Origin: Actinomyces sp. AC-20-1
Lineage (GTDB): Bacteria; Actinomycetota; Actinomycetes; Actinomycetales; Actinomycetaceae
Assembly (NCBI RefSeq): GCF_023369555.1
Contig: NZ_JACJVC010000011.1
Location: 1-64,000, forward strand
Direction of reading: 5' to 3'
Length of the DNA: 64,000 bases
Below are positions 13,489-25,668 of this stretch, piece by piece (the stretch's first letter is position 1; the number at the start of each line of letters is the position of its first letter). The position numbers and the translations under genes were made by a program. The notes under the pieces are model-generated. The model ran no database searches, was not told where the DNA came from, and saw only the letters and a program-made list of their open reading frames with translations.

Positions 13489-14919
13489 ATGAGTGACGAG
13501 GCTGTCTCCCCCGGTCCGCGCGAGCCCGCCTGGGTGCGGCACGCGATCGCCTGGCACGTGTTCCCGTTGGGGGCGGTGGGGGCTGAGCCCCTGCGTCCCG
13601 ACGGCGACCCCGCTGGCCCGTCGTCGCCCGCCGGCGCGGTGGCCGCCGAGCACCGTCTGCTGCGGCTGGTGCCGTGGCTGGACCACCTCGTGGGGCTGGG
13701 GGCGAACGTGCTCCAGCTGGGGCCGGTGCTGGACTCGATGTCCCACGGCTACGACACGGTGGACTACCTGCGCGTGGACCCGCGGCTGGGCACGGAGGAG
13801 GACCTGGTCACGCTCATCGCCGAGGCGCACGCGCGCGGCGTCAAGGTCATGCTCGACGGCGTCTTCAACCACACGGGTCTGGCCCACCCGGCCTTCGCCC
13901 GGCTGGCGCAGGAGGGGCCGTCCTGCGCGAGCGCCGGGATGTACCGGCTCACCTGGCCGGGCGGCGAGGAGGCGTGGGTGCCGGGCACGGCCCCCGGCTA
14001 TGAGCGCTTCGAGGGCCAGGACTGGCTGCCGGCCCTCAACCACGCCTCACCCGAGGTGGCCGGGCTCGTGGCCGGGGTGATGGAGCACTGGTGCGAGCGC
14101 GGGGTGGACGGCTGGCGCCTGGACGCCGCCTACGCGGTGGACCCGGTGTTCTGGCGCTCGGTGCTGCCGCGGGTGCGCGACCGCTTCCCGCAGGTGTACG
14201 TCTACGGGGAGGTGATCCACGGCGACTACGCGGGCGTGGTGGAGGCCTCGGGGATGGACGCGGTGACGCAGTACGAGCTGCGTCAGGCGGTGTGGCACTC
14301 GCTGGCGGACGCGAACCTCTTCGAGCTGGACTGGACGCTCACGCGCCACGCCGAGATGCTGGGGCGCTTCGTGCCGTGGACCTTCGTCGGCAACCACGAC
14401 ACCACCCGCATCGCCTCCGCGCTGGGCGACCGGCGCCTGCTGGGCCACGCCCTGGCGCTGCTGCTCCTGCTGCCGGGGACGCCGGCGGTGTACTACGGGG
14501 ACGAGGAGGGCCTGGAGGCGGTCAAGGAGGAGCGCCTGGGTGGTGACGACGCGATCCGTGCGCCCCTGCCGCCGGCGCCGTGGGGCGAGGAGAGCCCCGG
14601 TGCGCCCACGCGCCACCTGCACGCCGAGCTCATCGCCCTGCGCCGGCGCCTGCCGTGGCTGCACGACGCCGTGCTCGAGCGCCTGCACCTGGACAACCGC
14701 CTGCTGTCGGTGGCGCTGCGCCCGCGTGAGGCAGGCGTCGCCGGCGAGGGCGCTCAGGCCGAGGGCGTCGTGCTGGCGCTGAGCCTGGAGCAGGAGCCGG
14801 CGTGGCTGCCGACCGGTGGCCGGGGCCGGGTGCTGGCCGGTGCTCACGGCCTGGAGCCGGCGCGTCCGGTGGACGACGGTGTGGCGCTGCCGCCGATGGG
14901 CTGGGCCGTCCTGGGCTGA
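13489..14919 (+). CDS. Cytoplasmic GH13 alpha-amylase-family hydrolase
   Basis: A 476-aa protein without signal peptide. The four GH13 regions are seen: DGVFNHTG, GWRLDAAY (nucleophile Asp), VYGEVIHGDY (acid/base Glu) and FVGNHDTTRI (transition-state Asp), in that order from ~residue 122 to ~306. A (beta/alpha)8 barrel acting on alpha-glucans or oligosaccharides is expected; the exact specificity (alpha-amylase, neopullulanase or glucosidase) cannot be told. The small C-terminal beta domain is Arg/Ala-rich. Together with malQ and the PTS it points to alpha-glucan use. Confidence 0.88.
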   Translation: MSDEAVSPGPREPAWVRHAIAWHVFPLGAVGAEPLRPDGDPAGPSSPAGAVAAEHRLLRLVPWLDHLVGLGANVLQLGPVLDSMSHGYDTVDYLRVDPRLGTEEDLVTLIAEAHARGVKVMLDGVFNHTGLAHPAFARLAQEGPSCASAGMYRLTWPGGEEAWVPGTAPGYERFEGQDWLPALNHASPEVAGLVAGVMEHWCERGVDGWRLDAAYAVDPVFWRSVLPRVRDRFPQVYVYGEVIHGDYAGVVEASGMDAVTQYELRQAVWHSLADANLFELDWTLTRHAEMLGRFVPWTFVGNHDTTRIASALGDRRLLGHALALLLLLPGTPAVYYGDEEGLEAVKEERLGGDDAIRAPLPPAPWGEESPGAPTRHLHAELIALRRRLPWLHDAVLERLHLDNRLLSVALRPREAGVAGEGAQAEGVVLALSLEQEPAWLPTGGRGRVLAGAHGLEPARPVDDGVALPPMGWAVLG

Positions 14920-15018: not shown

Positions 15019-15765
15019 GTGCTGTCCTCCCTGTCCCTGGACGCCTGGGCCCTGCTCGTCGTCGGCGCGGTGGCGATCGGCGTGTCGAAGACGGCCCTGC
15101 CCGGGGCGACGACCCTGTCCGTGGCGCTCTTCGCCGCGGTGCTGCCCGCCCGGGCCTCGACGGGCACGATCCTCGTGCTGCTGCTCGTGGCGGACATGGT
15201 GGCGATCACCACCTACCGGCGCGACGCGGACTGGGGCACCCTGCGCCGGCTCGTGCCCGGGGTCCTCGTCGGGGTGGTGTCCGGCGCCGCCTTCCTCGCG
15301 GTGGCCAGCGACCGGCTGACGAAGGTGTTCATCGGCCTGCTCCTGCTGGTGCTCATCGCGGTGACGCTGGTGCTCATGCGGCGCCCGGAGCCCGCCCGGG
15401 TCCAGGGCCGGGTGGGGCGGGCGGTCTACGGCACGCTGGCGGGCTTCACGACGATGTCGGCCAACGCCGGCGGGCCGGTGATGAGCATGTACCTGCTGGC
15501 CTCCCAGTTCGCGGTGACGTCCTTCCTGGGGACCTCGGCCTGGTTCTTCTTCATCGTCAACGTGGTCAAGCTGCCCTTCTCCATCGCCCTGGGCGTCATC
15601 GAGCCCGAGACCCTGTGGGTCGACGTCGTGCTCGTCCCGGTGGTCCTGGTCTCGGCCTTCGGCGGGCGCTGGCTGGCGGCGCGCATGGACCCGGACCTGT
15701 TCGGCAGGATCGTCACCGTGCTCACGGTGGTCTCCGCGCTCTACCTCGTGGTCTCAGCGCTCTGA
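15019..15765 (+). CDS. TSUP (TauE/SafE) family membrane permease
   Basis: 248 aa with about eight hydrophobic helices in two homologous halves: AIGVSKTALPGATTLSVAL near the front and GFTTMSANAGGPVMSMYLL in the middle, the paired G/N/P-rich signatures of sulfite/organosulfonate exporters. It probably moves sulfite, sulfonate or a small anion. The GTG start at 15019 has TAGGCT (15007-15012) 6 nt upstream and no SD, so it is likely leaderless. Its last 25 nt overlap the tail of the convergent pfkB-family gene. Confidence 0.9.
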   Translation: MLSSLSLDAWALLVVGAVAIGVSKTALPGATTLSVALFAAVLPARASTGTILVLLLVADMVAITTYRRDADWGTLRRLVPGVLVGVVSGAAFLAVASDRLTKVFIGLLLLVLIAVTLVLMRRPEPARVQGRVGRAVYGTLAGFTTMSANAGGPVMSMYLLASQFAVTSFLGTSAWFFFIVNVVKLPFSIALGVIEPETLWVDVVLVPVVLVSAFGGRWLAARMDPDLFGRIVTVLTVVSALYLVVSAL

Positions 15766-16811
15766 GCGTCCTCCTCAGCGCGGGTGCGCGCCTGGGGCAC
15801 GCGCCCGGCGCTGCCGACTGAGGCCCTGGCTCCGGGCCGGTGGCTCACCGGCAGGCCCTGAGGCCCCCGCCCGGCCACAACGCGGGCCGCCGACCGGTTG
15901 GCCAGGGCGAGCACACGCTCGGGCGGCAGGTGCCGGGCCAGGCCCACGACGACGCCTGCGGTGTGGGCGTCCCCGGCCCCGTCGGTGTCGACGACCTCCA
16001 CGGGCACGGCCGGTGCCGTGAGCACCCGGGTGCCGTCGGAGGGGACCCAGGCGGCGCCGCCGGCCCCTTGGCGCAGGACGACATCGGTGCCGGTGGCGGT
16101 GGCCAGGGCCGCGAGCGCGTCCAGGCGGACGGTGGCCGGGTCGCGGGCGAGGAGCGCGTCGGCCTCCTCCTCGTTGGCGGCCAGGACGTCGGCGCGGGCG
16201 AGGACCCGCTGGCGCAGGCGGGCGTCAGCGGCGAGGTCGGCCACGCGCCCTCCGGGGTCGATGACGACGGTGGCGTCCAGGCCCTCGAGCCAGGTCAGGA
16301 GGTGGTGGCCGTCGGCGAGGAGCTGGAAGCCGGAGGCGTAGACGACGGGGCGCTCACCGGACCGCCCGGCCAGGGCGCGCGCCAGGGCGGCGTCGAGGGC
16401 GGTGAGCCTGGGTGCGGACCAGTCCATCTCGCAGCCGGGGGTGGTGACGAAGGTGCGCTCGCCGTCGGGGGTGAGCAGGGTCAGGCAGGTGCCGTTGTCG
16501 GCCGGGTGGAGGGGCAGGAGGGTGGGGGCGCCGTCGGGCAGGGCGGTCCCGAGCGCGTGGAGCTCGTGGGCGATCCGCGCGCCCCTGGGCCCGGAGCCGA
16601 CGGCGAGGGCGCTCAGAGGGGTGCAGCCCAGGGCGGCCGTGGCCCGTAGGACGTTGAGGCCGGTGCCGCCGTTGCCCTGGGCGACGGGCTGGGCCCAGGT
16701 GTGCCCGCCGTGGGCCGGCAGGCCGAGGACCGTGACGAGGACGTCCTCCAGGGCGGAGCCGACGACGAGGACGGGGCGCTCGGGCCGGGGCCCGGTGCGG
16801 GGGCTGCTCAC
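15741..16811 (-). CDS. PfkB-family carbohydrate/nucleoside kinase
   Basis: A 356-aa ribokinase-like kinase. It has the N-terminal VLVVGSALEDV strand, GNGGTGLNVLRATAALG substrate-binding segment, and the C-terminal DTDGAGDAHTAG anion hole with the catalytic Asp. It phosphorylates a sugar or nucleoside; the substrate is not predictable. The GTG at 16811 (MSSPRTGPRPERP) follows TATCCT (16818-16823) by 6 nt, which favours this start over an ATG far upstream at 17192 inside proC. The Arg/Ala-rich last ~35 residues overlap the TSUP 3' end and may be non-functional. Confidence 0.85.
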   Translation of the reverse strand: MSSPRTGPRPERPVLVVGSALEDVLVTVLGLPAHGGHTWAQPVAQGNGGTGLNVLRATAALGCTPLSALAVGSGPRGARIAHELHALGTALPDGAPTLLPLHPADNGTCLTLLTPDGERTFVTTPGCEMDWSAPRLTALDAALARALAGRSGERPVVYASGFQLLADGHHLLTWLEGLDATVVIDPGGRVADLAADARLRQRVLARADVLAANEEEADALLARDPATVRLDALAALATATGTDVVLRQGAGGAAWVPSDGTRVLTAPAVPVEVVDTDGAGDAHTAGVVVGLARHLPPERVLALANRSAARVVAGRGPQGLPVSHRPGARASVGSAGRVPQARTRAEEDAQSAETTR

Positions 16812-16844
16812 GCGGGGAGGATAGCGGCCGGTAGCCTGGCTCTC

Positions 16845-17798
16845 ATGACCTCTCAGGACGCGCAGGCGGCTCAGGAAGCAGCGACAGCCCAGGACGCCCA
16901 GGCGGCGCAGGAGCCACGGCCCTTCCCGGAGGGGCGGTCCTCCGCGGCGGTGCCGCCCGGCACGACCTTCGGCTTCCTCGGTGCGGGCAGCATGGCGGGC
17001 GCGATCGTGCGCGGGGCGGTGGCCGCGGGCCTGACCCGGGGCCCGGGAGCCGCCCGCCTGCTGGTGACGAGCCCGCACGGCTCGGCGGCAGCCCTCGCGG
17101 CCGAGCTGGCCGGGCAGGGCGTCGAGCACGTGGCGCAGGCCCCGGACCTCGTGCGCGCCAGCGACGTCGTGGTCCTGGGGGTCAAGCCGCACGTCGTGGC
17201 GGTGGTGCTCGAGCAGCTGCGCGAGGCGCTGGCCGGGCGCCCGCTGGTGGTGTCCCTGGCCGCGGGCCTGCCCCTGGCCCGCCTGGAGGCGATGCTGCCC
17301 GAGGGCTCGCGCGCGGTGCGGGCGATGCCGAACATGGCGGCGGCCGTGGGGGCGTCGATGACGGCGCTGGCGGCGGGCTCGGGGGCGGGTGAGGAGGACC
17401 TGGCCCTCGTCGAGGGGCTCATGGGGGCGGTGGGGCGCACCACCCGGATCGCCGAGCGGGACTTCCCGGCCTTCGTGGGGCTGGCGGGCTCCTCCCCCGC
17501 CTTCGTCCTCACCTTCATCGAGGCCCTGGCGCGGGCGGGGGTCCTGGCGGGCGTCCCGAAGGCGCAGGCGGTGGACATCGTGGCCCAGGCGGTGCTCGGC
17601 TCGGCGCTGACCGTGCAGGCGGAGGCGGCCTCACGGGCCGGGGGCGGGCGCACGCCGGCGGACCTGGTGGACGCGGTGTGCTCACCGGGGGGCACGACGG
17701 TCGCCGGGCTGGTGGCGATGGAGCGGGCGGGGTTCTCCAGCGCGGTCATCGAGGGCTTCAGGGCGACGGTGGCGCGCGACCGGGAGCTGGGGGCCTGA
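16845..17798 (+). CDS. proC: Pyrroline-5-carboxylate reductase
   Basis: 317 aa; the last step of proline synthesis, reducing 1-pyrroline-5-carboxylate with NAD(P)H. The Rossmann motif GFLGAGSMAGAI begins near residue 43, then VLGVKPHVV, RAMPNMAA and the C-terminal signature DAVCSPGGTTVAGLVAMERAG. The first ~40 residues (Gln/Ala-rich, with the repeated DAQAAQE) are extra compared with the usual ~270-aa enzyme. The start is at 16845: TAGCCT (16832-16837) sits 7 nt ahead, without SD. It is divergent from pfkB with a 33-bp gap. Confidence 0.94.
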   Translation: MTSQDAQAAQEAATAQDAQAAQEPRPFPEGRSSAAVPPGTTFGFLGAGSMAGAIVRGAVAAGLTRGPGAARLLVTSPHGSAAALAAELAGQGVEHVAQAPDLVRASDVVVLGVKPHVVAVVLEQLREALAGRPLVVSLAAGLPLARLEAMLPEGSRAVRAMPNMAAAVGASMTALAAGSGAGEEDLALVEGLMGAVGRTTRIAERDFPAFVGLAGSSPAFVLTFIEALARAGVLAGVPKAQAVDIVAQAVLGSALTVQAEAASRAGGGRTPADLVDAVCSPGGTTVAGLVAMERAGFSSAVIEGFRATVARDRELGA

Positions 17799-17858
17799 CG
17801 CAGGGCCCCTTCTCATGGGGGCCGGCAGCGGGGACGTGATCTCAACCACCGACCCTCA

Positions 17859-17886
17859 TTGCATTACGAAGGAATATTGCTAAACT
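17859..17886 (+). promoter_or_regulatory. Promoter of the ROK/ABC sugar operon
   Basis: TTGCAT (17859-17864) and TAAACT (17881-17886) are 16 bp apart in an AT-rich island between proC and the ROK gene. The autoregulated operator would be expected here; no clear palindrome was found. A weak hairpin (GGCCCC / GGGGGCC) just after proC may terminate it. Confidence 0.6.
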
Positions 17887-17946
17887 CCCTTGCGTCTCGA
17901 GTTCGTGACCTGCGCCACCCCACGCGACCACGAGGAGGGCTCAAGG

Positions 17947-20274
17947 ATGAGCACACAGCACAGCGGCCCCCTGCGCCGCCGCCCCAAGGACCGGTCGGAC
18001 AAGTCCGACGCCGTCCTCGCCGCCCTGCGCACGAGCGCGCCCGTCACCGTCAGCGCGCTGGCCACCGCCACCGGCTACTCCCGCCCCACGGTCACCGAGA
18101 TCCTCTCCGAGTTCGCCTCCGCCGGCGTCACCACCGAGTCCGAGCCCGAGGAGCAGGGCGTCGGCCGTCCCGCCAGCACCTGGGACCTGCGCCAGGACGC
18201 CGGCACCGTCGTCGGCCTCGACCTCCTGCCGGCCTCCGCCCTCGTCGCCGCCGCCGACATGCGCTGCCACGTCCTCGCCGCACGGCACATCGCCCTGCCC
18301 ACGGCCTCCGCGGAGGAGCGCCTGGAGGCCGTCACCACCACCGTCCGCCACCTCACCGCCGGACTGAGCGGCCACGGGCCCCTGCGCGCCGTCGCCGCCT
18401 CCGCCACCGGCCGGGTCAGCGACGACGGCACCGTCCTGCAGGCCGACCTAGCCCCCGCCTGGACCGGCTTCCCCCTCGCCCAGCGCCTGGGCGAGGAGCT
18501 GGGCGTGCCCGCCGTCGTCGACAACGACATCAACGCCGCCGCCCTCGGCGAGTTCCACGCCCGCCGTCAGGAGGGGCGCATCCGCCCCAACGGGGACCTG
18601 CTCTTCGTCCAGCTCGCCCGGGGGCTGCACACCGGCCTCGTCCTGGGCGGCGCCATCCACCGCGGGCACGAGTTCAACGCCGGCGAGATCGCCGACTTCC
18701 TCGACCTGCGCCTGGACGAGCAGACCCTCGTGACCGACACCTGGATCACGCGCGTCGCCCTCACCGTCGCCAGCGTCGGCGCTGTCGTCGACCCCGACGC
18801 CATCGTCCTGTCCTCACCCTCCGAGTCCTCCCGCGCCACCGTCACCCGGGTCCTGCAGGCGCTCAGCGCCCTGAGGACCCCCTCCTCGCCCTCCTTCGCC
18901 GCGGAGGTCAGCGAGCTCGGCTGGGCGGCCGGCGTCGTCGGAGCCCTCCACCGGGCCCTCGCCACCGCCGACCGGGCCCTGACCGGCGCCGCCCTCCCCC
19001 GCCCCGTGGCCCTCACGGGCACCTCACTCATCCAGTCCACGCTCGAGAAAGGCCGGCACTCCACCATGACCACCACCCACCAGACCCCCACCCGCACGCT
19101 GCACGTCGGCGTGGTGGGAGTCGGAGCCCGGTCCACCTTCACGCTGGCCGCCGAGCTGGAGCAGAACAACGGGCGCATCGTCGCCGTCTGCGACCCCCAC
19201 CCGCTCGTCGCCGAGCGCGTGCGCGCACGCCTGCGCCGTGAGCCCGAGGACGTCGTCATCACCTCCACCGTTGACGAGCTCATCGCCACCGGCATCGACG
19301 TCGCCTTCGTCACCTCCCCCGACGACACCCACGCCGCGGTCACCTGCGCCCTGCTCGAGGCCGGCGTGCCCGTCTACCTCGAGAAGCCGCTCGCCACCGA
19401 CCTGGATGACGCCACCCGCGTGCTCACCACCGCCCACCGCACCGGCACGCGGCTCTACGTCGGACACAACATGCGCCACATGAACGTCGTGCGCACCATG
19501 CGCGACATCATCCGCTCCGGGCGCATCGGCGAGGTCAAGGCCATCTGGTGCCGCCACTTCGTCGGCCACGGCGGCGACTTCTACTTCAAGGACTGGCACG
19601 CCGACCGCTCCCGCTCCAACACCCTGCTGCTGCAGAAGGCCGCCCACGACATCGACGTCATGCACTGGCTCGCCGACGCCCACACCACCGAGGTCGTCGC
19701 CATGGGCGGGCTCACCGTCTACGACCGGGTCACCGACCGGGCAGACAACTCCGACCGCCTCATGAGCGACTGGTTCAGCGAGGAGCACTGGCCCCCGCTG
19801 GCGCAGAAGGAGCTCAACCCCGTCATCGACGTCGAGGACCTGTCCATGGTCCTCATGCGCATGAGCTCGGGCGTCTACGCCTCCTACGAGCAGTGCCACT
19901 ACACGCCCGACTACTGGCGCAACTACACCGTCATCGGCACCGAGGGCCGCATCGAGAACTTCGGCGACGGCGAGGGCGGCGTCATCCGCCTGTGGAACCG
20001 CCGCTCCGACTACCGGGCCGAGGGCGACGAGACCTTCCCGATCCTGGGCGACGCCGGTGGCCACGGCGACGCCGACGTCCTGACCATCACCGAGTTCATC
20101 CGCTTCGTGCGCGAGGGGGCCGCCACCGACACCTCCCCGCTGGGCGCCTGGTACGCGGTGGCCGCCGGCATCCAGGCCGCCGGCTCCCTGCGCGACGGCT
20201 CCACCCCGCGCAGCGTCCCCGAGCTCGACCCCGAGCTCGTCGCCTACTTCACCCACAACCAGAACCGGGTCTGA
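17947..20274 (+). CDS. ROK-family regulator fused in frame to a Gfo/Idh/MocA oxidoreductase
   Basis: One uninterrupted 775-aa reading frame. Residues 1 to ~370 are a ROK repressor: winged HTH (VSALATATGYSRPTVTEILSEF), then a degenerate sugar-kinase fold with VVDNDINAAALGEF and NAGEIADF but without a proper DxGGT phosphate motif or the zinc cysteines, so it is a sensor, not a kinase. From ~residue 374 (ATG 19066) comes a Gfo/Idh/MocA dehydrogenase: GVVGVGARSTF, EKPLATDLDDA and GHNMRHMNVV, with HFVGHGGDFYFKDWHA in the substrate domain. Start ATG 17947 has GAGGAGGGCTCAAGG. No stop separates the halves. It heads an ABC sugar operon. It is either a true sensor-enzyme fusion or a repressor that lost its stop, with the enzyme made from its own internal start. 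Confidence 0.85.
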   Translation: MSTQHSGPLRRRPKDRSDKSDAVLAALRTSAPVTVSALATATGYSRPTVTEILSEFASAGVTTESEPEEQGVGRPASTWDLRQDAGTVVGLDLLPASALVAAADMRCHVLAARHIALPTASAEERLEAVTTTVRHLTAGLSGHGPLRAVAASATGRVSDDGTVLQADLAPAWTGFPLAQRLGEELGVPAVVDNDINAAALGEFHARRQEGRIRPNGDLLFVQLARGLHTGLVLGGAIHRGHEFNAGEIADFLDLRLDEQTLVTDTWITRVALTVASVGAVVDPDAIVLSSPSESSRATVTRVLQALSALRTPSSPSFAAEVSELGWAAGVVGALHRALATADRALTGAALPRPVALTGTSLIQSTLEKGRHSTMTTTHQTPTRTLHVGVVGVGARSTFTLAAELEQNNGRIVAVCDPHPLVAERVRARLRREPEDVVITSTVDELIATGIDVAFVTSPDDTHAAVTCALLEAGVPVYLEKPLATDLDDATRVLTTAHRTGTRLYVGHNMRHMNVVRTMRDIIRSGRIGEVKAIWCRHFVGHGGDFYFKDWHADRSRSNTLLLQKAAHDIDVMHWLADAHTTEVVAMGGLTVYDRVTDRADNSDRLMSDWFSEEHWPPLAQKELNPVIDVEDLSMVLMRMSSGVYASYEQCHYTPDYWRNYTVIGTEGRIENFGDGEGGVIRLWNRRSDYRAEGDETFPILGDAGGHGDADVLTITEFIRFVREGAATDTSPLGAWYAVAAGIQAAGSLRDGSTPRSVPELDPELVAYFTHNQNRV
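19043..19068 (+). promoter_or_regulatory. Possible internal translation start for the dehydrogenase half
   Basis: GAGAAAGG lies ~13 nt before an in-frame ATG at 19066 that begins a normal Gfo/Idh/MocA N-terminus (MTTTHQTPTRTLHVGVVG). This could give a free ~402-aa dehydrogenase besides the fusion. The spacing is longer than ideal. Confidence 0.4.
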
Positions 20275-20315: not shown

Positions 20316-21611
20316 ATGACCCTCAACCGGAGGCACTTCCTCACCGGCTCGGCGCTGGTCGCCGTCGCCACCACCCTGGCCGCCTGCGGCTCCGGCTCCT
20401 CGTCGGGATCCGGCTCCTCCGACGGCGGCGAGCTCACCGCGGACACCACCGCCGAGCTCACCCTCGCCTACTGGGACAAGAACCAGACGCCCACCGTCGA
20501 GGCCAACATCGCCTCCTTCAAGGAGATGTACCCCAACATCACGGTGACGACCAACCTCACCGTCTACAAGGACTACTGGACCAAGCTGCGCACCCAGGCC
20601 GAGGGCGGGACCATGCCCGACGTCCTGTGGATGAACGGCCCCAACATCCAGCTCTACGCCTCCAACGGCATGCTCGCCCCCGTCGACGGCGACGTCCCGT
20701 GGCACAGCTACCCGGCCTCCCTCGTGGACCTCTACACCTACGACGGCACCCACTACGGCATCCCGAAGGACTACGACACCATCGGCGTCTTCCTCAACAA
20801 GAAGATCTTCGAGGCCGCCGGCGTCGAGCTGCCGCAGTCCGGCTGGACCTGGGACGACTTCCACGCCAAGGCCAAGGCCATCAGCGACTGGGGCAAGGAC
20901 CAGGGCATCTGGGGCTGCGCCACGACGGTCAACGGCGACGGCCAGGGCACCTACTACAACACGATGCTCCAGGCCGGCGGCTTCGTCATCAGGGACGGCA
21001 AGTCCGGCTTCGACGACCCCAAGTCCATCGAGGGCCTCAGGTGCTGGGCCGAGTGGATCGCCGACGGCTCCGTCGCCCCGCCCGCCGTCGTCACCGACAC
21101 CAAGCCGCTGGACATGTTCAACAACGGCAAGTCCGCCATGTTCTGGGCCGGTGACTGGACCTGCCCGGAGGTCGTCGAGTCCTTCTCCGGCGAGACCACC
21201 GACGTCGACGTCATCGACATGCCCTCCAAGGAGAAGCAGGCCACCGTCATCCACGGCCTGGCCTGGACCGCCTCCGCCCAGTCGAAGAACCTGGCGGCCG
21301 CCAAGGCCCTGACCACCCACATGGCCTCGAAGGCCTCACAGGAGGTCGAGGGCAGGAACGGCACGGCGATCCCCGCCTTCACGGGCACGCAGCAGCCGTG
21401 GGTCGACGCCTACCCGGACTGGAACTGCCAGGTCTTCGTCGACGCCGCCGAGAAGTACTCGGTCGCCTACCCCGTCTCGAAGAACACGAGCGTGTGGGCC
21501 GACAAGGAGGTCGAGTACCTCAACCCCGCCTTCGCCGGTGAGACCGACGTGACGACGGCGGCCACCGAGCTCGCCGCCTTCATGAACGAGGCCCTGGCCG
21601 AGGAGGAGTGA
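20316..21611 (+). CDS. ABC sugar transporter substrate-binding lipoprotein (Tat-type signal)
   Basis: A 431-aa extracytoplasmic family 1 binding protein. The signal has NRRHFLTG (twin-arginine-like) and the lipobox LAAC with the acylated Cys near residue 24, then a Ser/Gly linker. The mature part shows ELTLAYWDKNQTPTVEANIASF, MPDVLWMNGPN, YGIPKDYDTIGVFLNKKIFEAAG and FWAGDWTC, the standard sugar-binding pattern. Start ATG 20316 has AAGGAGAG. The stop overlaps the next start (TGATG). The sugar is unknown; neighbouring dehydrogenases hint at a polyol, inositol or amino-sugar derivative. Confidence 0.93.
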   Translation: MTLNRRHFLTGSALVAVATTLAACGSGSSSGSGSSDGGELTADTTAELTLAYWDKNQTPTVEANIASFKEMYPNITVTTNLTVYKDYWTKLRTQAEGGTMPDVLWMNGPNIQLYASNGMLAPVDGDVPWHSYPASLVDLYTYDGTHYGIPKDYDTIGVFLNKKIFEAAGVELPQSGWTWDDFHAKAKAISDWGKDQGIWGCATTVNGDGQGTYYNTMLQAGGFVIRDGKSGFDDPKSIEGLRCWAEWIADGSVAPPAVVTDTKPLDMFNNGKSAMFWAGDWTCPEVVESFSGETTDVDVIDMPSKEKQATVIHGLAWTASAQSKNLAAAKALTTHMASKASQEVEGRNGTAIPAFTGTQQPWVDAYPDWNCQVFVDAAEKYSVAYPVSKNTSVWADKEVEYLNPAFAGETDVTTAATELAAFMNEALAEEE

Positions 21612-22570
21612 TGACCGCCGCCTCCATCACGGCCGCCTCGGCCGGTGGGGGTGCCCGGGCCCGCCGGGAGGGGACGCACGCCGGTCGCGGCCCCTCCCGG
21701 GTCGGGGCGTGGCCGGTGCTCTTCATCGGCCCGCTCATGCTCGGCGTGACGGTCTTCTACTACTGGCCGATCCTCACCAACCTCATCGTCTCCACCCAGC
21801 GGACCAACGCCTTCGGCGGCAACGCCACCTTCGTCGGCCTGGACAACTACACCGACCTGCTCAGCTCGGGCGACCTGCCCTCGGCGATCCGCAACACGCT
21901 CATCTACACCGCGCTGGTGCTCCTGGGCATCCCGCTGTCCCTCGGCATCGCCGCGATGATCGAGCTGCCGGGCCTGCGGCTCAAGAGCCTGTACCGCACC
22001 ATGTACTTCATGCCGTACCTGGCCATGCCCATGGCGGTGGCGCAGGTGTGGAAGATCGTCCTCAACGGCGACTTCGGCCTGCTCAACCAGCTGCTCAAGA
22101 GCGTGGGGGTCGCCAACCCGCCCTACTGGCTCGTCACCCCCGGCTGGGCGCTGGTGGCCGTGGCCATCTTCGGGGTGTGGGCCTCCATCGGCTTCAACGT
22201 CATCATCCTGTCCTCCGGGCTCAAGGCGATCCCGCGCGAGCTCTACGAGGCCGCCTCCATCGACGGCGCCTCCGGGTGGCGCCAGTTCCGCTCCATCACG
22301 GTGCCGCTGCTGAGCCCGCAGATCTTCTTCCTCACGATCATGACGACGATCGGCGGCTTCCAGCTCTTCGACGCCCTGTACGCGATGATCGACCGCGGCA
22401 ACCCCGCCGAGCCGCACACGCGCTCCCTGGTCGCCCTGTTCTACCGGCAGGCCTTCCAGAACTCGGCGCAGGGCGAGGGCGCGGCCATCGCCGTCGTCAT
22501 CCTCCTGTTCGTCGCCGTCGTGACCCTCATCCAGTTCATCGGCCAGAAGAGGTGGGTCCACTATGTCTGA
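21611..22570 (+). CDS. ABC sugar transporter permease (MalF/UgpA type)
   Basis: 319 aa with a ~30-residue cytoplasmic N-terminus and six expected membrane helices. The EAA loop YEAASIDGASGWRQFRSITV that contacts the ATPase is at about residue 215. The start ATG shares a base with the binding-protein stop; a GTG one codon earlier is also possible. It ends 8 nt inside the second permease. No ATPase gene is present in the operon, as is usual where a shared MsiK-like ATPase serves several importers. Confidence 0.93.
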   Translation: MTAASITAASAGGGARARREGTHAGRGPSRVGAWPVLFIGPLMLGVTVFYYWPILTNLIVSTQRTNAFGGNATFVGLDNYTDLLSSGDLPSAIRNTLIYTALVLLGIPLSLGIAAMIELPGLRLKSLYRTMYFMPYLAMPMAVAQVWKIVLNGDFGLLNQLLKSVGVANPPYWLVTPGWALVAVAIFGVWASIGFNVIILSSGLKAIPRELYEAASIDGASGWRQFRSITVPLLSPQIFFLTIMTTIGGFQLFDALYAMIDRGNPAEPHTRSLVALFYRQAFQNSAQGEGAAIAVVILLFVAVVTLIQFIGQKRWVHYV

Positions 22571-23429
22571 GCGCAGCAGGGCCTCCCGCCTGTCCCTGGG
22601 GCGCGTGCTGCGCACCCAGCGGCGCTACTGGCTCGTGCACCTCGTGCTGCTGGCCGGTGGGCTCGTCATGGTCTTCCCCTTCGTGTACCAGCTCCTCATG
22701 AGCGTGGCCACGGACGCCCAGGTGCGCAGCGTGCCCCCGACCCTCGTCCCGGACACCCTGCACTGGGAGAACTACGCGGAGGTCTTCACCAAGCTGCCGT
22801 TCCTCAAGCAGTTCGGCACCTCCGTGCTCATCACGGTGGCGCGCACCGCCGGGCAGGTGGTGCTGGCCTCGATGGCCGGCTACGCCTTCGCCCGGATGCC
22901 CTTCCGGGGCCGCGGGATCCTGTTCGGGGCGCTGCTGCTCATCCTCATGGTGCCCGGCCAGTCCTACCTCATCGGCCAGTACCGCATCGTGCGCGACCTG
23001 GGCCTGCTCGAGACGCCGTGGGGCATCGTCGCCCCGGGCCTGTTCTCCGCCTTCGCCACCTTCCTCATGCGCCAGGCCTTCATGGGCCTGCCCAACGAGA
23101 TGGAGGAGGCGGCGCGCCTGGACGGTGCGAACCAGTGGCAGATCTTCTGGCGGATCATGCTGCCGCTCGTGCGCCCCAGCCTCTTCGCCGTCATGATCAC
23201 GACGGTCCTGTGGTCCTGGAACGACCTGCTGTGGCCGCTCATCGTCACCAGCCGCGAGGAGAACATGCCGCTGAGCGTGGGCATCGCGACCCTGGCGGGC
23301 CAGCACTCGACCGACTACACGCTCATGATGGCGGCCTCGACCATGGCCATGGCGCCGATCTTCCTGCTGTTCTTCACCATGCAGAAGCGCGTCATCGAGG
23401 GCCTGGCCTCCTCGGGCGTCAAGGGCTGA
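22563..23429 (+). CDS. ABC sugar transporter permease (MalG/UgpE type)
   Basis: 288 aa with six predicted helices. The EAA motif is EEAARLDGANQWQIFWRIML near residue 180, and the C-terminus QKRVIEGLASSGVKG is typical of MalG-like permeases. It starts 8 nt before the end of the first permease gene (translational coupling) and pairs with it to form the membrane channel. The next gene begins 5 nt after the stop. Confidence 0.94.
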   Translation: MSERSRASRLSLGRVLRTQRRYWLVHLVLLAGGLVMVFPFVYQLLMSVATDAQVRSVPPTLVPDTLHWENYAEVFTKLPFLKQFGTSVLITVARTAGQVVLASMAGYAFARMPFRGRGILFGALLLILMVPGQSYLIGQYRIVRDLGLLETPWGIVAPGLFSAFATFLMRQAFMGLPNEMEEAARLDGANQWQIFWRIMLPLVRPSLFAVMITTVLWSWNDLLWPLIVTSREENMPLSVGIATLAGQHSTDYTLMMAASTMAMAPIFLLFFTMQKRVIEGLASSGVKG

Positions 23430-23434
23430 GAGGG

Positions 23435-24472
23435 GTGACGACGACGTCCACGAGCCGTGTGCGGGCCCCCGGCGGCGCCCGCGCACGGCTTGTCGTGCTC
23501 GCGGTGGCCCTCGTCATCCTCCTCTCGCTCACGTGGCTGGCGGTGCGCGTGGCCCTGGACGGCACGAGCACCGCCGTCGTGTCCGCCGGGCGGGTGGGCT
23601 TCACGGTGGTGGCGCTATGGCTGCTGAGCGCGCACCACGCGCGCAGCGCCCGCCGCGGTGCCGGAGCCCCGGCCGGGGCGAGCGCCCCGCGGGCTGCCGG
23701 CCCGCTGCGCCCCTGGCAGGCCGCGGTGCTGTCGGTGGCCGGCGTGAGCGGCTACACGGCCCTGTCCACCGTGGCCGTGCGGGTGTCCGGCACGCTCCTG
23801 CCCTCCCTCATCGTGTCCACCGGGCCCCTGTGGGTGCTCGCGCTGGTCTGCCTGCGCCGGCGCAGCGGCCCGGGCCGGATCAGGACCCTGGGCACGCTCA
23901 CCGCCGTGGCCGGCGGCGCGCTCTTCCTGCTCGCCGGCTCCCAGGGGCCGGGCGGCGCCAGCGCTGCCGGCACTGCCAGCCCTGTCAGCACTGTCAGCAC
24001 TGTCAGCGCCCTCGGCGTGCTGCTGGCCGTGGGGGCCGTGCTCCTCATGAGCGTCTACACCGTGGCCTTCGCGGCCCTCACCCGCGGCTACCGCGGGCCC
24101 ATGGCTCCGGTCATCACCCCGGTCTACGCGTGGGGCCTGGTGCCCCTGGCCGCGTGGGCGGTCATCGACCTGCTCCGCGGAGCCCGGCTCACGCCGTCGG
24201 CGCTGGCCGTGCTCGCCGCGCTCGGCCTGCTCGTCTACCTTCCCCTCTATCTCATCCAGCACCGTCTGCTGGCCGAGGTCGGCGCCCACCCCGTGAGCCT
24301 GCTCGGCCTGGCCGTCAGCCCGCTCGTCGCCGTCGAGACCGCCGGCCTGGGGCTGGGGGCCTGGCCCTCGCTGCTGCAGTGGCTCGCCGTCGCCGTCACG
24401 CTGGCGGGCACGGCCGCCGTCATCGGCGCGCCCGGGCCCGCTGACCACTCACCGAAGGAGGATGCCCCGTGA
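23435..24472 (+). CDS. EamA/DMT-family transporter
   Basis: 345 aa with about ten hydrophobic segments in two EamA-like halves (first half LSLTWLAVRVALDG..GFTVVALWLL; a second half after residue ~200). The loops contain a low-complexity stretch with GTASPVSTVSTVSALG. It probably exports a metabolite of the imported sugar pathway. The GTG at 23435 starts 5 nt after the permease stop with AGAGG immediately before it; the end overlaps the next gene by 4 nt (GTGA). A DMT gene inside a sugar-ABC operon is unusual. Confidence 0.85.
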   Translation: MTTTSTSRVRAPGGARARLVVLAVALVILLSLTWLAVRVALDGTSTAVVSAGRVGFTVVALWLLSAHHARSARRGAGAPAGASAPRAAGPLRPWQAAVLSVAGVSGYTALSTVAVRVSGTLLPSLIVSTGPLWVLALVCLRRRSGPGRIRTLGTLTAVAGGALFLLAGSQGPGGASAAGTASPVSTVSTVSALGVLLAVGAVLLMSVYTVAFAALTRGYRGPMAPVITPVYAWGLVPLAAWAVIDLLRGARLTPSALAVLAALGLLVYLPLYLIQHRLLAEVGAHPVSLLGLAVSPLVAVETAGLGLGAWPSLLQWLAVAVTLAGTAAVIGAPGPADHSPKEDAP

Positions 24473-25668
24473 CCCGCCTGCGCACCGCCGTCGTCGGAGC
24501 CGGACAGCGCTTCACCGAGGTCGTCCCGGCAGCCGCCGCTGCCGGGCGGCTCGAGGTCGTCGCCGTCGTCGACCCCTCCCCCGCGGCCCGTGAGCGCGCC
24601 GCCGCCCTGCTGCCCGCGGCGCGCCTGCACGCGGACCTGGACTCCCTGCTGGCCGGGGACGTGCCCGGTGCGGGCGCCGAGGCGGCGCTCGTCCTGACCC
24701 CGGACTGGACGCACGCCGAGGTCGGCACGGCCCTGCTCCGCTCCGGCCTGCACGTCCTTGTGGACAAGCCGCTGGCGACGACCATCGAGGGTGCGGACGC
24801 GCTGCTGGCCGCCGCCGAGGCCTCGGGGCGGCTGCTGTACGCGGGGCACAACATGCGCTTCATGCCCGTGGTCGAGGTCATGCGCCAGGTGGTCGAGGAC
24901 GGCCTCATCGGCACGCCACGCGCCTTCTGGGTGCGTCACTTCGTGGGGCGCGGCGGCGACTACTTCTTCCGCGACTGGCACGCCGAGTCGGCGCTCTCGG
25001 GCGGGCTGCTGGTGCACAAGGCCTGCCACGACCTGGACGCCATGAGCCACGTGCTGGGCACGAGCATCCAGGCGGTCCAGGCCATCGGCACGAACGCCGT
25101 CTACCACGGCTGCGAGCCACGGCCCGAGGGGCGGGCCGTGCCCGAGGTGGTCAACGACGTCACGCACTGGCCGCCGTCGGCGCTGACGGACGTCAACCCG
25201 GCGATGGACGTGGAGGACCTGTCCCTGGTCAACCTCGTGTGCTCGCACGGCGTGCTCGGCGCCTACCAGCAGTGCTGCTTCACCCCGGACTACTGGCGCT
25301 CCTACACGGTCATCGGGGACGCTGGCCGGATGGAGAACGTGGGGGACTCGGCGGGCGAGGGAGAGGTCCTCGTGTGGAACCGGCGGCGCCACGGCTTCGA
25401 CGCCGAGCCGGACCTGCGCCTGCCGCTCGTCGAGGGCCGGGGGGCGACGGCCCCGGTCTGCGAGGGCCGGTCGGGCGCGCACGACGCGGCCGACGCCGCC
25501 ATGCTCGCGGACTTCGCCGCCGCGGTGCTGGACGGCACGGCGCCGCGCACGAGCGCGCGCACGGCCCGCGACGTCGTGGCCGCCGGGGTCCTGGCGCGCC
25601 GCTCCATGCACGGTGGCGGCCTGCTGCCGGTGCCCGAGCCTAGGGTGGGTACGCGTTCCACGACCTGA
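24469..25668 (+). CDS. Gfo/Idh/MocA-family oxidoreductase, paralogue of the operon's first one
   Basis: A 399-aa NAD(P)-dependent sugar/polyol dehydrogenase. It has the Rossmann start TAVVGAGQRFTEV, then DKPLATTIEGA, GHNMRFMPVVEVMRQVV and RHFVGRGGDYFFRDWHAES. These blocks closely match the dehydrogenase half of the ROK fusion (GHNMRHMNVV, RHFVGHGGDFYFKDWHAD, and TPDYWRxYTVIG in both), so the two arose by duplication and may do successive steps on one substrate. GTG 24469 with AAGGAGG upstream; 4-nt overlap with the DMT gene. It is the last gene of the operon. Confidence 0.92.
   Translation: MTRLRTAVVGAGQRFTEVVPAAAAAGRLEVVAVVDPSPAARERAAALLPAARLHADLDSLLAGDVPGAGAEAALVLTPDWTHAEVGTALLRSGLHVLVDKPLATTIEGADALLAAAEASGRLLYAGHNMRFMPVVEVMRQVVEDGLIGTPRAFWVRHFVGRGGDYFFRDWHAESALSGGLLVHKACHDLDAMSHVLGTSIQAVQAIGTNAVYHGCEPRPEGRAVPEVVNDVTHWPPSALTDVNPAMDVEDLSLVNLVCSHGVLGAYQQCCFTPDYWRSYTVIGDAGRMENVGDSAGEGEVLVWNRRRHGFDAEPDLRLPLVEGRGATAPVCEGRSGAHDAADAAMLADFAAAVLDGTAPRTSARTARDVVAAGVLARRSMHGGGLLPVPEPRVGTRSTT

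Follow-up and report, generated by a model that had tools for sequence, protein, structure and literature searches.

The window analysed here is the 64,000-nucleotide stretch at positions 1 to 64,000 (forward strand) of contig NZ_JACJVC010000011.1 of Actinomyces sp. AC-20-1, whose genome comprises 2.70 Mb in 47 contigs. The window encodes a ROK-type repressor and a Gfo/Idh/MocA dehydrogenase in one gene, at 17947..20274. The open reading frames and translation of the window show a single open frame on the + strand from ATG 17947 to TGA 20274, 775 residues in length, and the gene is confirmed as real. The repressor half (17947..19065, + strand, 373 codons) has a predicted N-terminal winged helix-turn-helix, followed by a ROK domain without the zinc motif and without the ExGH histidine. 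The dehydrogenase half (19066..20274, + strand) has 402 residues if begun at ATG 19066, and retains a Glu-Lys-Pro (EKP) motif at residues 479-481 as well as His567.

The Pfam ROK model matches residues 98-248 (E 1.5e-15). At 58 bits, PF00480 is well above its cut-off of 22.9 and establishes ROK-domain homology, over the part of the profile that is aligned (positions 11-155 of 294). The helix-turn-helix match, to HTH_Crp_2, is weak (23.4 bits, under the Pfam cut-off of 27). The best solved relative of this half is 2hoe (E 4.4e-15, over residues 17-258), the N-terminal part of which aligns from residue 17. A first-pass annotation of this DNA had described a complete ROK repressor. The homology stands, and 'complete' has to be qualified, as this half has neither the zinc motif nor the histidine of ExGH. 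In the dehydrogenase half, Pfam GFO_IDH_MocA was located at residues 386-507 (E 6.7e-21) and GFO_IDH_MocA_C3 at residues 515-670. The scores (PF01408, 75.6 bits; PF22725, 71.4 bits; PF02894, 46.2 bits) identify both a Rossmann domain and a C-terminal domain. Among solved structures, its best relative is 3moi, which is a probable dehydrogenase.

Fusions without an intervening stop codon were found in 5 of 59 relatives, window included (threshold 1e-3), in 6 of 49 genomes of the window's genus (1e-60), and in 9 of 213 genomes of its family, window included, with the other eight at 54-86% identity (1e-60). The claim that repressor and dehydrogenase are joined without a stop is thus borne out by the family genomes as well as by the frame itself. 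Checking of the stop region in relatives, as had been proposed, gave mostly the same answer: no stop interrupts the frame in the closest kin, at up to 86% identity, and a minority of relatives have separate or broken genes. The fusion also occurs in 2 of 396 genomes of an order sample (1e-100), 3 of 394 genomes of a class sample (1e-120), 1 of 299 genomes of the family of genome G247 (1e-60) and about 24 of 197 genomes of the family of genome G814 (1e-60). The genus, family, order, class and other genome sets overlap, and at most 2-5 candidates were scored per genome in the family, order, class, G814-family and G247-family scans, so that distant or extra copies may be missed. Within the family of G814, a one-frame match spans both halves in 23 genomes, and G1109 was matched from residue 173, in a frame of 765 residues. 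Seven genomes of that family (G1031, G1059, G1072, G1099, G1111, G1114 and G996) have two different fused copies each. Carriers include species of Cutibacterium, Actinomyces and Acidipropionibacterium that inhabit skin, mucosa and dairy.

For comparison at the level of loci, at least 80 named loci were kept. A profile search flagged 25 of them as fused, and exclusion of two with broken repressor frames (L133 and L148) left 23; at least 23 named records therefore have an uninterrupted fusion. Seven more loci bring the set to 30. The set of 36 used for the join adds six (L208, L210, L212, L213, L216 and L218, with L208 a near copy of L127) of 15 further loci. The rest of these 15 were left out as repeats (L205, L209, L211, L214, L215 and L217), as broken (L204) or as repressor-less (L206 and L207). 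The joins examined are those of the 36 fused frames; other fused copies of the G814 family lie outside this set.

The ratio of nonsynonymous to synonymous substitution rates (dN/dS) was below 1 in both halves in all eight pairs compared, at 0.06-0.61 for the ROK half and 0.03-0.31 for the dehydrogenase half. The value for the dehydrogenase half was the lower of the two in six pairs; in one pair the halves were equal, and in another (L144/L145) the dehydrogenase half had the higher value. Comparison of the window with its nearest kin, G021, gave 0.48 (ROK) and 0.31 (dehydrogenase). Given that dN/dS is below 1 in all eight pairs, both halves look as if they are retained as protein.

The join itself contains a second feature. 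An internal ATG (19066..19068, + strand) is preceded by a Shine-Dalgarno-like AAAGG in the joining stretch (19048..19052, + strand), 13 bases 5' of it. This ATG had been raised earlier as a possible second start, and it proved to be conserved: a start codon is found at the same place in 30 of 36 fused frames (26 ATG, 3 TTG and 1 GTG), preceded by a Shine-Dalgarno-like stretch. The free dehydrogenase begun there would have 400-406 residues. In the first nine fused genes the codon is an in-frame ATG or TTG that follows AAAGG, AAGGG, AGGAG or AGGAGG. Where leucine occupies the start position, it is encoded by TTG in three cases and by CTC in one (L134). The lysine of the joining stretch is encoded by AAA in 12 of 14 cases, with 2.9 expected, in genes that otherwise favour AAG; in the window, AAAGG contains the sole AAA among the eight lysine codons of the gene. 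By raw energy of pairing with the anti-Shine-Dalgarno sequence, the joining column ranks 18th of 757 in the first 11 sequences, and other coding stretches pair better. For this reason the later controls were internal ATGs and synonymous reshuffles. Pairing at the join had a median of -5.6 (n=25, including the doubtful L144), whereas the median upstream of 450 other internal ATGs was -2.3 (p 9e-11). When the codons of the join were reshuffled synonymously, with the peptide fixed, the mean was -5.08 +/- 0.30 versus the observed -5.98, and 2 of 1000 reshuffles were as strong (0 of 400 in a separate run). The start codon at the join is retained where the repressor frame is broken (L204 and L205) or where the ROK match is gone (L206); in L207, also without a ROK match, the start is elsewhere. 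Selection at the RNA level for a putative ribosome site at the join is moderately supported by these comparisons.

According to PMC5458393, the motifs of ROK proteins are DxGxT, a catalytic Asp, ExGH and the zinc motif CxCGxxGCx(E/D). The zinc motif of canonical ROK proteins (CxCGxxGCxE) is absent from all 30 fused ROKs and from all eight close unfused ROK neighbours (L075, L078, L083, L084, L089, L122, L195 and L202), and is present in all six ROKs taken from elsewhere. The close neighbours are frames that match at 1e-15 or better; two of an original ten were dropped, L148 because it is a broken fusion and L192 because it is cut by the end of the locus. ExGH is likewise absent from the 30 fused ROKs and from the same eight unfused ones, and in the fused ROKs the alignment column of the histidine shows D, L, E, M or A, or is gapped. 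The usual ROK sugar site thus appears to be altered, though not proven dead. The zinc loss common to the fused ROKs and to the unfused repressor-type ROKs that accompany this dehydrogenase is our main hint that the enzyme may be the sensor.

In the dehydrogenase half, Gly391, Gly393, EKP 479-481, Gln563, Lys564, His567, Asp568 and Asp570 are identical in all 30 fused copies. These include the EKP lysine and the histidine expected of the Gfo/Idh/MocA family, which we take to be the catalytic residues. Given the identity of EKP and of the His-Asp motif in 30 of 30 copies, the fused dehydrogenase is most likely active. In a search of NCBIfam, every match of the fused dehydrogenase was far under the curated cut-off.

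Not all relatives are fused. Two Bowdeniella genomes (L075 and L078) encode the ROK protein and the dehydrogenase as separate genes with an ATGA overlap; the same ABC genes as in the window lie downstream in one of these two genomes (L111), and in the second (L110) the contig ends. Other separate ROK-dehydrogenase pairs were identified in G140, Schaalia georgiae, Nonomuraea and Leucobacter. Three relatives, L133 (on the same contig as L205), L148 and L204, have a broken repressor frame, and no ROK match was found upstream in L206 (1.5 kb upstream) or in L207. Trees were made for both halves by quick searches and have long branches. In the ROK tree, a split with support 94 separates the fused and adjacent ROKs from the six taken from elsewhere. 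Fused sequences fall into three groups with unfused ones interspersed, and the fused label needs as few as one change. In the dehydrogenase tree (94 rows: 30 fused, 6 separate pairs, 2 broken and 56 others), well-supported branches force at least six changes of the label. The origin may be either an old fusion that was often split and lost or an old gene pair that was fused several times.

Several dehydrogenase records have features of their own. The dehydrogenase of the record Xylanimonas cellulosilytica 352_XCEL is nearly identical to that of Schaalia odontolytica (L181 and L172), and that of 'Actinomyces sp. ph3' is nearly identical to that of Trueperella pyogenes (L157 and L156); these records may be misnamed. 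In L168 (Ruania albidiflava) a second dehydrogenase match (31%) adjoins the first, and in L195 (Nonomuraea typhae) dehydrogenase matches of 50% and 52% lie side by side. Both are possible tandem duplications.

The region 5' of the fusion (17799..17946, + strand) is a candidate autoregulatory operator region. Within it, TTACGAAGG at 17864-17872 resembles a half-site of other fused loci. The word TTATGAAA/TTTCATAA, with one mismatch allowed and on either strand, occurs in 21 of 30 upstream regions; the best word occurs in 11-13 in five shuffled sets. In Microbacterium gorillae, a perfect nine-base dyad lies 17 bases 5' of the start. The best inverted repeat had p<0.05 in 4 of 30 upstream regions (60 shuffles each), and one of these four repeats is as far as 126 bases from the start. 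Palindromes alone therefore prove nothing, and only the shared half-site beats its shuffles. Autoregulation via the upstream region is plausible, and the half-site shared by 21 of 30 regions is only suggestive of it.

The genes that follow on the + strand encode an ATP-binding cassette (ABC) transporter and a further dehydrogenase. By Pfam, these are an ABC transporter substrate-binding protein (SBP_bac_8 / SBP_bac_1; 20316..21611), ABC permease 1 (BPD_transp_1; 21608..22570) and ABC permease 2 (BPD_transp_1; 22563..23429). Next is an EamA-like membrane protein (23426..24472; a weak match of 27.7 bits, under the Pfam cut-off of 28.2), and then a second Gfo/Idh/MocA dehydrogenase (24469..25668) with 41% identity to the fused one. 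The first-pass annotation had placed the fusion at the head of a sugar-type ABC operon with a dehydrogenase paralogue at its end, and all of these genes were indeed identified in that order. In 20 of 30 fused loci the fusion is followed by genes for the substrate-binding protein and the two permeases. Of 11 wide fused loci, four (the window, G021, G008 and G002) were found to have a second dehydrogenase paralogue like that of the window; in a fifth, L106, the second paralogue is more distant. BLAST clusters place a threonine dehydrogenase downstream of the fusion in five wide loci, together with glycine C-acetyltransferase in three of them (threonine 3-dehydrogenase and glycine C-acetyltransferase at L104:12390-14690 and likewise in L107 and L108; only the threonine dehydrogenase in L040 and L105). 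These neighbours may hint at an amino-acid-linked sugar substrate, and no substrate was reached from them. Located 5' of the operon, and apparently outside it, are a PfkB-type carbohydrate kinase gene (15744-17192, - strand) and an alpha-amylase-type gene (13489-14919, + strand).

The reading that we prefer, at a probability of about 0.47, is that one gene yields two products and acts as a PutA-like autoregulator, with the signal read at least partly by the enzyme. Translation from ATG 17947 would give a repressor-dehydrogenase of ~82 kDa, and translation from ATG 19066 a free dehydrogenase of ~43 kDa. The long form would bind the control region of its own operon through the helix-turn-helix of the ROK half and repress the operon. 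The dehydrogenase half would be an active enzyme dependent on nicotinamide adenine dinucleotide or its phosphate (NAD(P)) that co-assembles with free enzyme subunits. Imported substrate (or reduced cofactor) in the enzyme sites would then release the attached repressor, and the ABC transporter and enzyme would be made. As the ROK half is without the usual zinc/histidine part of the sugar site, sensing may have moved at least partly to the enzyme. DNA binding would in this way be linked to enzyme occupancy or NAD state, as the first-pass annotation had also suggested. The sequences show the fusion and its conservation, the start codon at the join, the altered ROK site, the intact catalytic-type residues and the operon; from there on, we infer the use of the internal start, repression of the gene's own operon, the signal and the role of the enzyme as sensor. 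A more specific version, in which the fusion and the free enzyme from the conserved internal start co-assemble, the altered ROK site is replaced as sensor by the dehydrogenase, and the induction threshold is fixed by how much of each product is made relative to the other, is in our judgement rather unlikely as a whole.

A number of observations weigh against this autoregulator. The compared rows are related, so the counts are not independent. At the join, six of the 36 fused frames (L134, L139, L140, L142, L144 and L145) have no start codon, and two products would therefore not be needed everywhere. The synonymous test leans on L068: without it, the values are -5.83 versus -5.25 +/- 0.30, and 29 of 1000 reshuffles are as strong. 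Removal of L068, L002, L208 and L218 leaves 24 of 1000 as strong, with further near copies still included. The join of the window (-5.2) is not better than its own reshuffles, 39.5% of which are equally good, and L003, L212 and L216 pair more weakly than theirs; the window, L003, L132, L137, L151, L159, L212, L216 and L090 do not stand out singly in this test. Part of the pairing signal accompanies the peptide KGxHST, and the 13 bases that separate AAAGG from the internal ATG of the window exceed the usual Shine-Dalgarno spacing. Neither a clear palindrome nor a sigma-70-like match was identified in the upstream region of the window. An ABC cassette of the window's kind is not downstream in 10 of 30 fused loci, two of which (G247 and G180) have oligopeptide-type transporters.

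The ROK half provides further points of this kind. Asn193, Asp194 and Glu247, three of the five sugar contacts of ROK proteins named in PMC2742894, are kept in all 30 fused copies; of the remaining contacts, the histidine is gone and the zinc motif that carries the last Glu is gone as well. Because the three residues are kept, the ROK half may still bind a ligand. A ROK kinase without the zinc site that retains other active-site features is described in PMC5458393. An early description of the pocket as dead was dropped on account of the kept Asn, Asp and Glu, in favour of the narrower claim that the zinc motif and the histidine of ExGH have been lost. The ExGH pattern does not discriminate, since 3 of the 6 control ROKs are also without it, and so the zinc motif carries the argument. 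Weaker neighbours that match the ROK domain only are mixed: the motif is present in L171 and L182 and not in L172, L181 or the second of L154 (L086 and L087 are cut off). Lastly, the shared zinc loss could also be explained by common descent of these ROKs. The ROK genes of L171 and L182, with zinc motif and GEIGH intact, lie downstream of or opposite an unfused dehydrogenase and look like sugar kinases.

Many of these points fit a plain fusion, in which the stop codon was lost from an old ROK-dehydrogenase pair, the halves are co-expressed and independent, the ROK half binds an altered ligand of its own, and the internal start is a fading relic. We consider this account a live possibility, if still a doubtful one. 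It would be consistent with the four-base ATGA overlap of the separate Bowdeniella genes, with the missing start codon in 6 of 36 fusions, with the N, D and E of the ROK pocket retained in 30 of 30, with the mixture of fused and separate ROKs in one part of the ROK tree, and with the modest synonymous signal for a ribosome site once L068 is removed. However, across genera the start codon (30 of 36 fusions) and the AAA codon (12 of 14) are better preserved than a relic should be, and absence of the zinc motif from all 30 fused and all 8 close unfused ROKs suggests dependence on the dehydrogenase. Loss of the stop codon by sequencing or assembly error is exceedingly improbable. Nothing was found in favour of such an artefact, and it was rejected because uninterrupted homologues exist in many genomes, with nine uninterrupted copies in the 213 family genomes and more in other families.

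The two halves might also differ in importance. If the free enzyme matters most, the long frame would be little translated or the repressor half would be decaying. The repressor half does differ more from species to species, and a few close relatives have it broken (L133, L148 and L204) or yielded no match to it (L206 and L207). We nevertheless regard this as improbable: dN/dS of the ROK half is below 1 in 8 of 8 pairs, and the six fusions that have no start codon there probably supply the enzyme in fused form only. The opposite case is that the fused dehydrogenase is dead or only a sensor and that the paralogue at 24469-25668 does the chemistry; the first-pass annotation had suggested that the fused copy may be a sensor. 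It draws on the second paralogue downstream in the window, G021, G008 and G002. It was rejected in view of the catalytic-type residues and the rarity of the paralogue, and we consider it very improbable: EKP and the His-Asp motif are kept in 30 of 30 copies, six of the eight pairs have a lower dN/dS in the dehydrogenase than in the ROK half, and only four of the 11 wide fused loci were found to have the paralogue.

If the autoregulator reading is true, a widespread repressor-enzyme fusion from two very large families would be added to the few known trigger enzymes, and a sugar-sensing repressor would be seen to pass its sensing to the enzyme under its control. The internal start would be a simple route to a sensor and a free enzyme from one gene. 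The matching zinc-site loss in the fused and closely related adjacent ROKs makes such a hand-over of sensing directly testable. New here are the start codon with a Shine-Dalgarno-like stretch at the join (30/36), the zinc-less ROK half (30/30) and the kept dehydrogenase motifs (30/30). The first-pass annotation had not noted the probable ribosome site at the internal start, the altered pocket of the ROK half or how widely the fusion is distributed. A literature search showed no paper on such a fusion among the matches listed, and two papers mention the ROK family and MocA together, each of them once; most subscription papers are outside its coverage, so this is not proof of novelty.

In terms of known systems, the fusion resembles the trigger enzymes PutA, BirA and NadR in that an enzyme and a DNA-binding repressor (here by domain content) occur in one polypeptide, placed to control their own uptake and catabolic genes. 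PutA is the closest analogy that we have for its working: as described in PMC8249747, it represses the put genes without proline and acts as a dehydrogenase with proline. Repression and a substrate response of this kind are proposed for the present fusion. Unlike proteins of the PutA type, the fusion consists of a ROK repressor and a Gfo/Idh/MocA dehydrogenase, and 30 of the 36 copies examined have at the join a codon from which the free enzyme could start. With ROK repressors of the NagC, Mlc and XylR type it shares a ROK domain, preceded by an N-terminus with a predicted helix-turn-helix; unlike them, its ROK half is without CxCGxxGCxE and the ExGH histidine (30/30) and is joined to an enzyme. 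With inositol dehydrogenase, UDP-GlcNAc 3-dehydrogenase and 3moi the fusion has in common a Rossmann domain, a C-terminal domain and the EKP and His-Asp motifs, whereas a repressor at the N-terminus, and scores under the cut-off of every NCBIfam model matched, set it apart from these Gfo/Idh/MocA dehydrogenases. The gene pairs of Bowdeniella are built from the same two families in the same order, but their two frames overlap at ATGA and do not form a single one.

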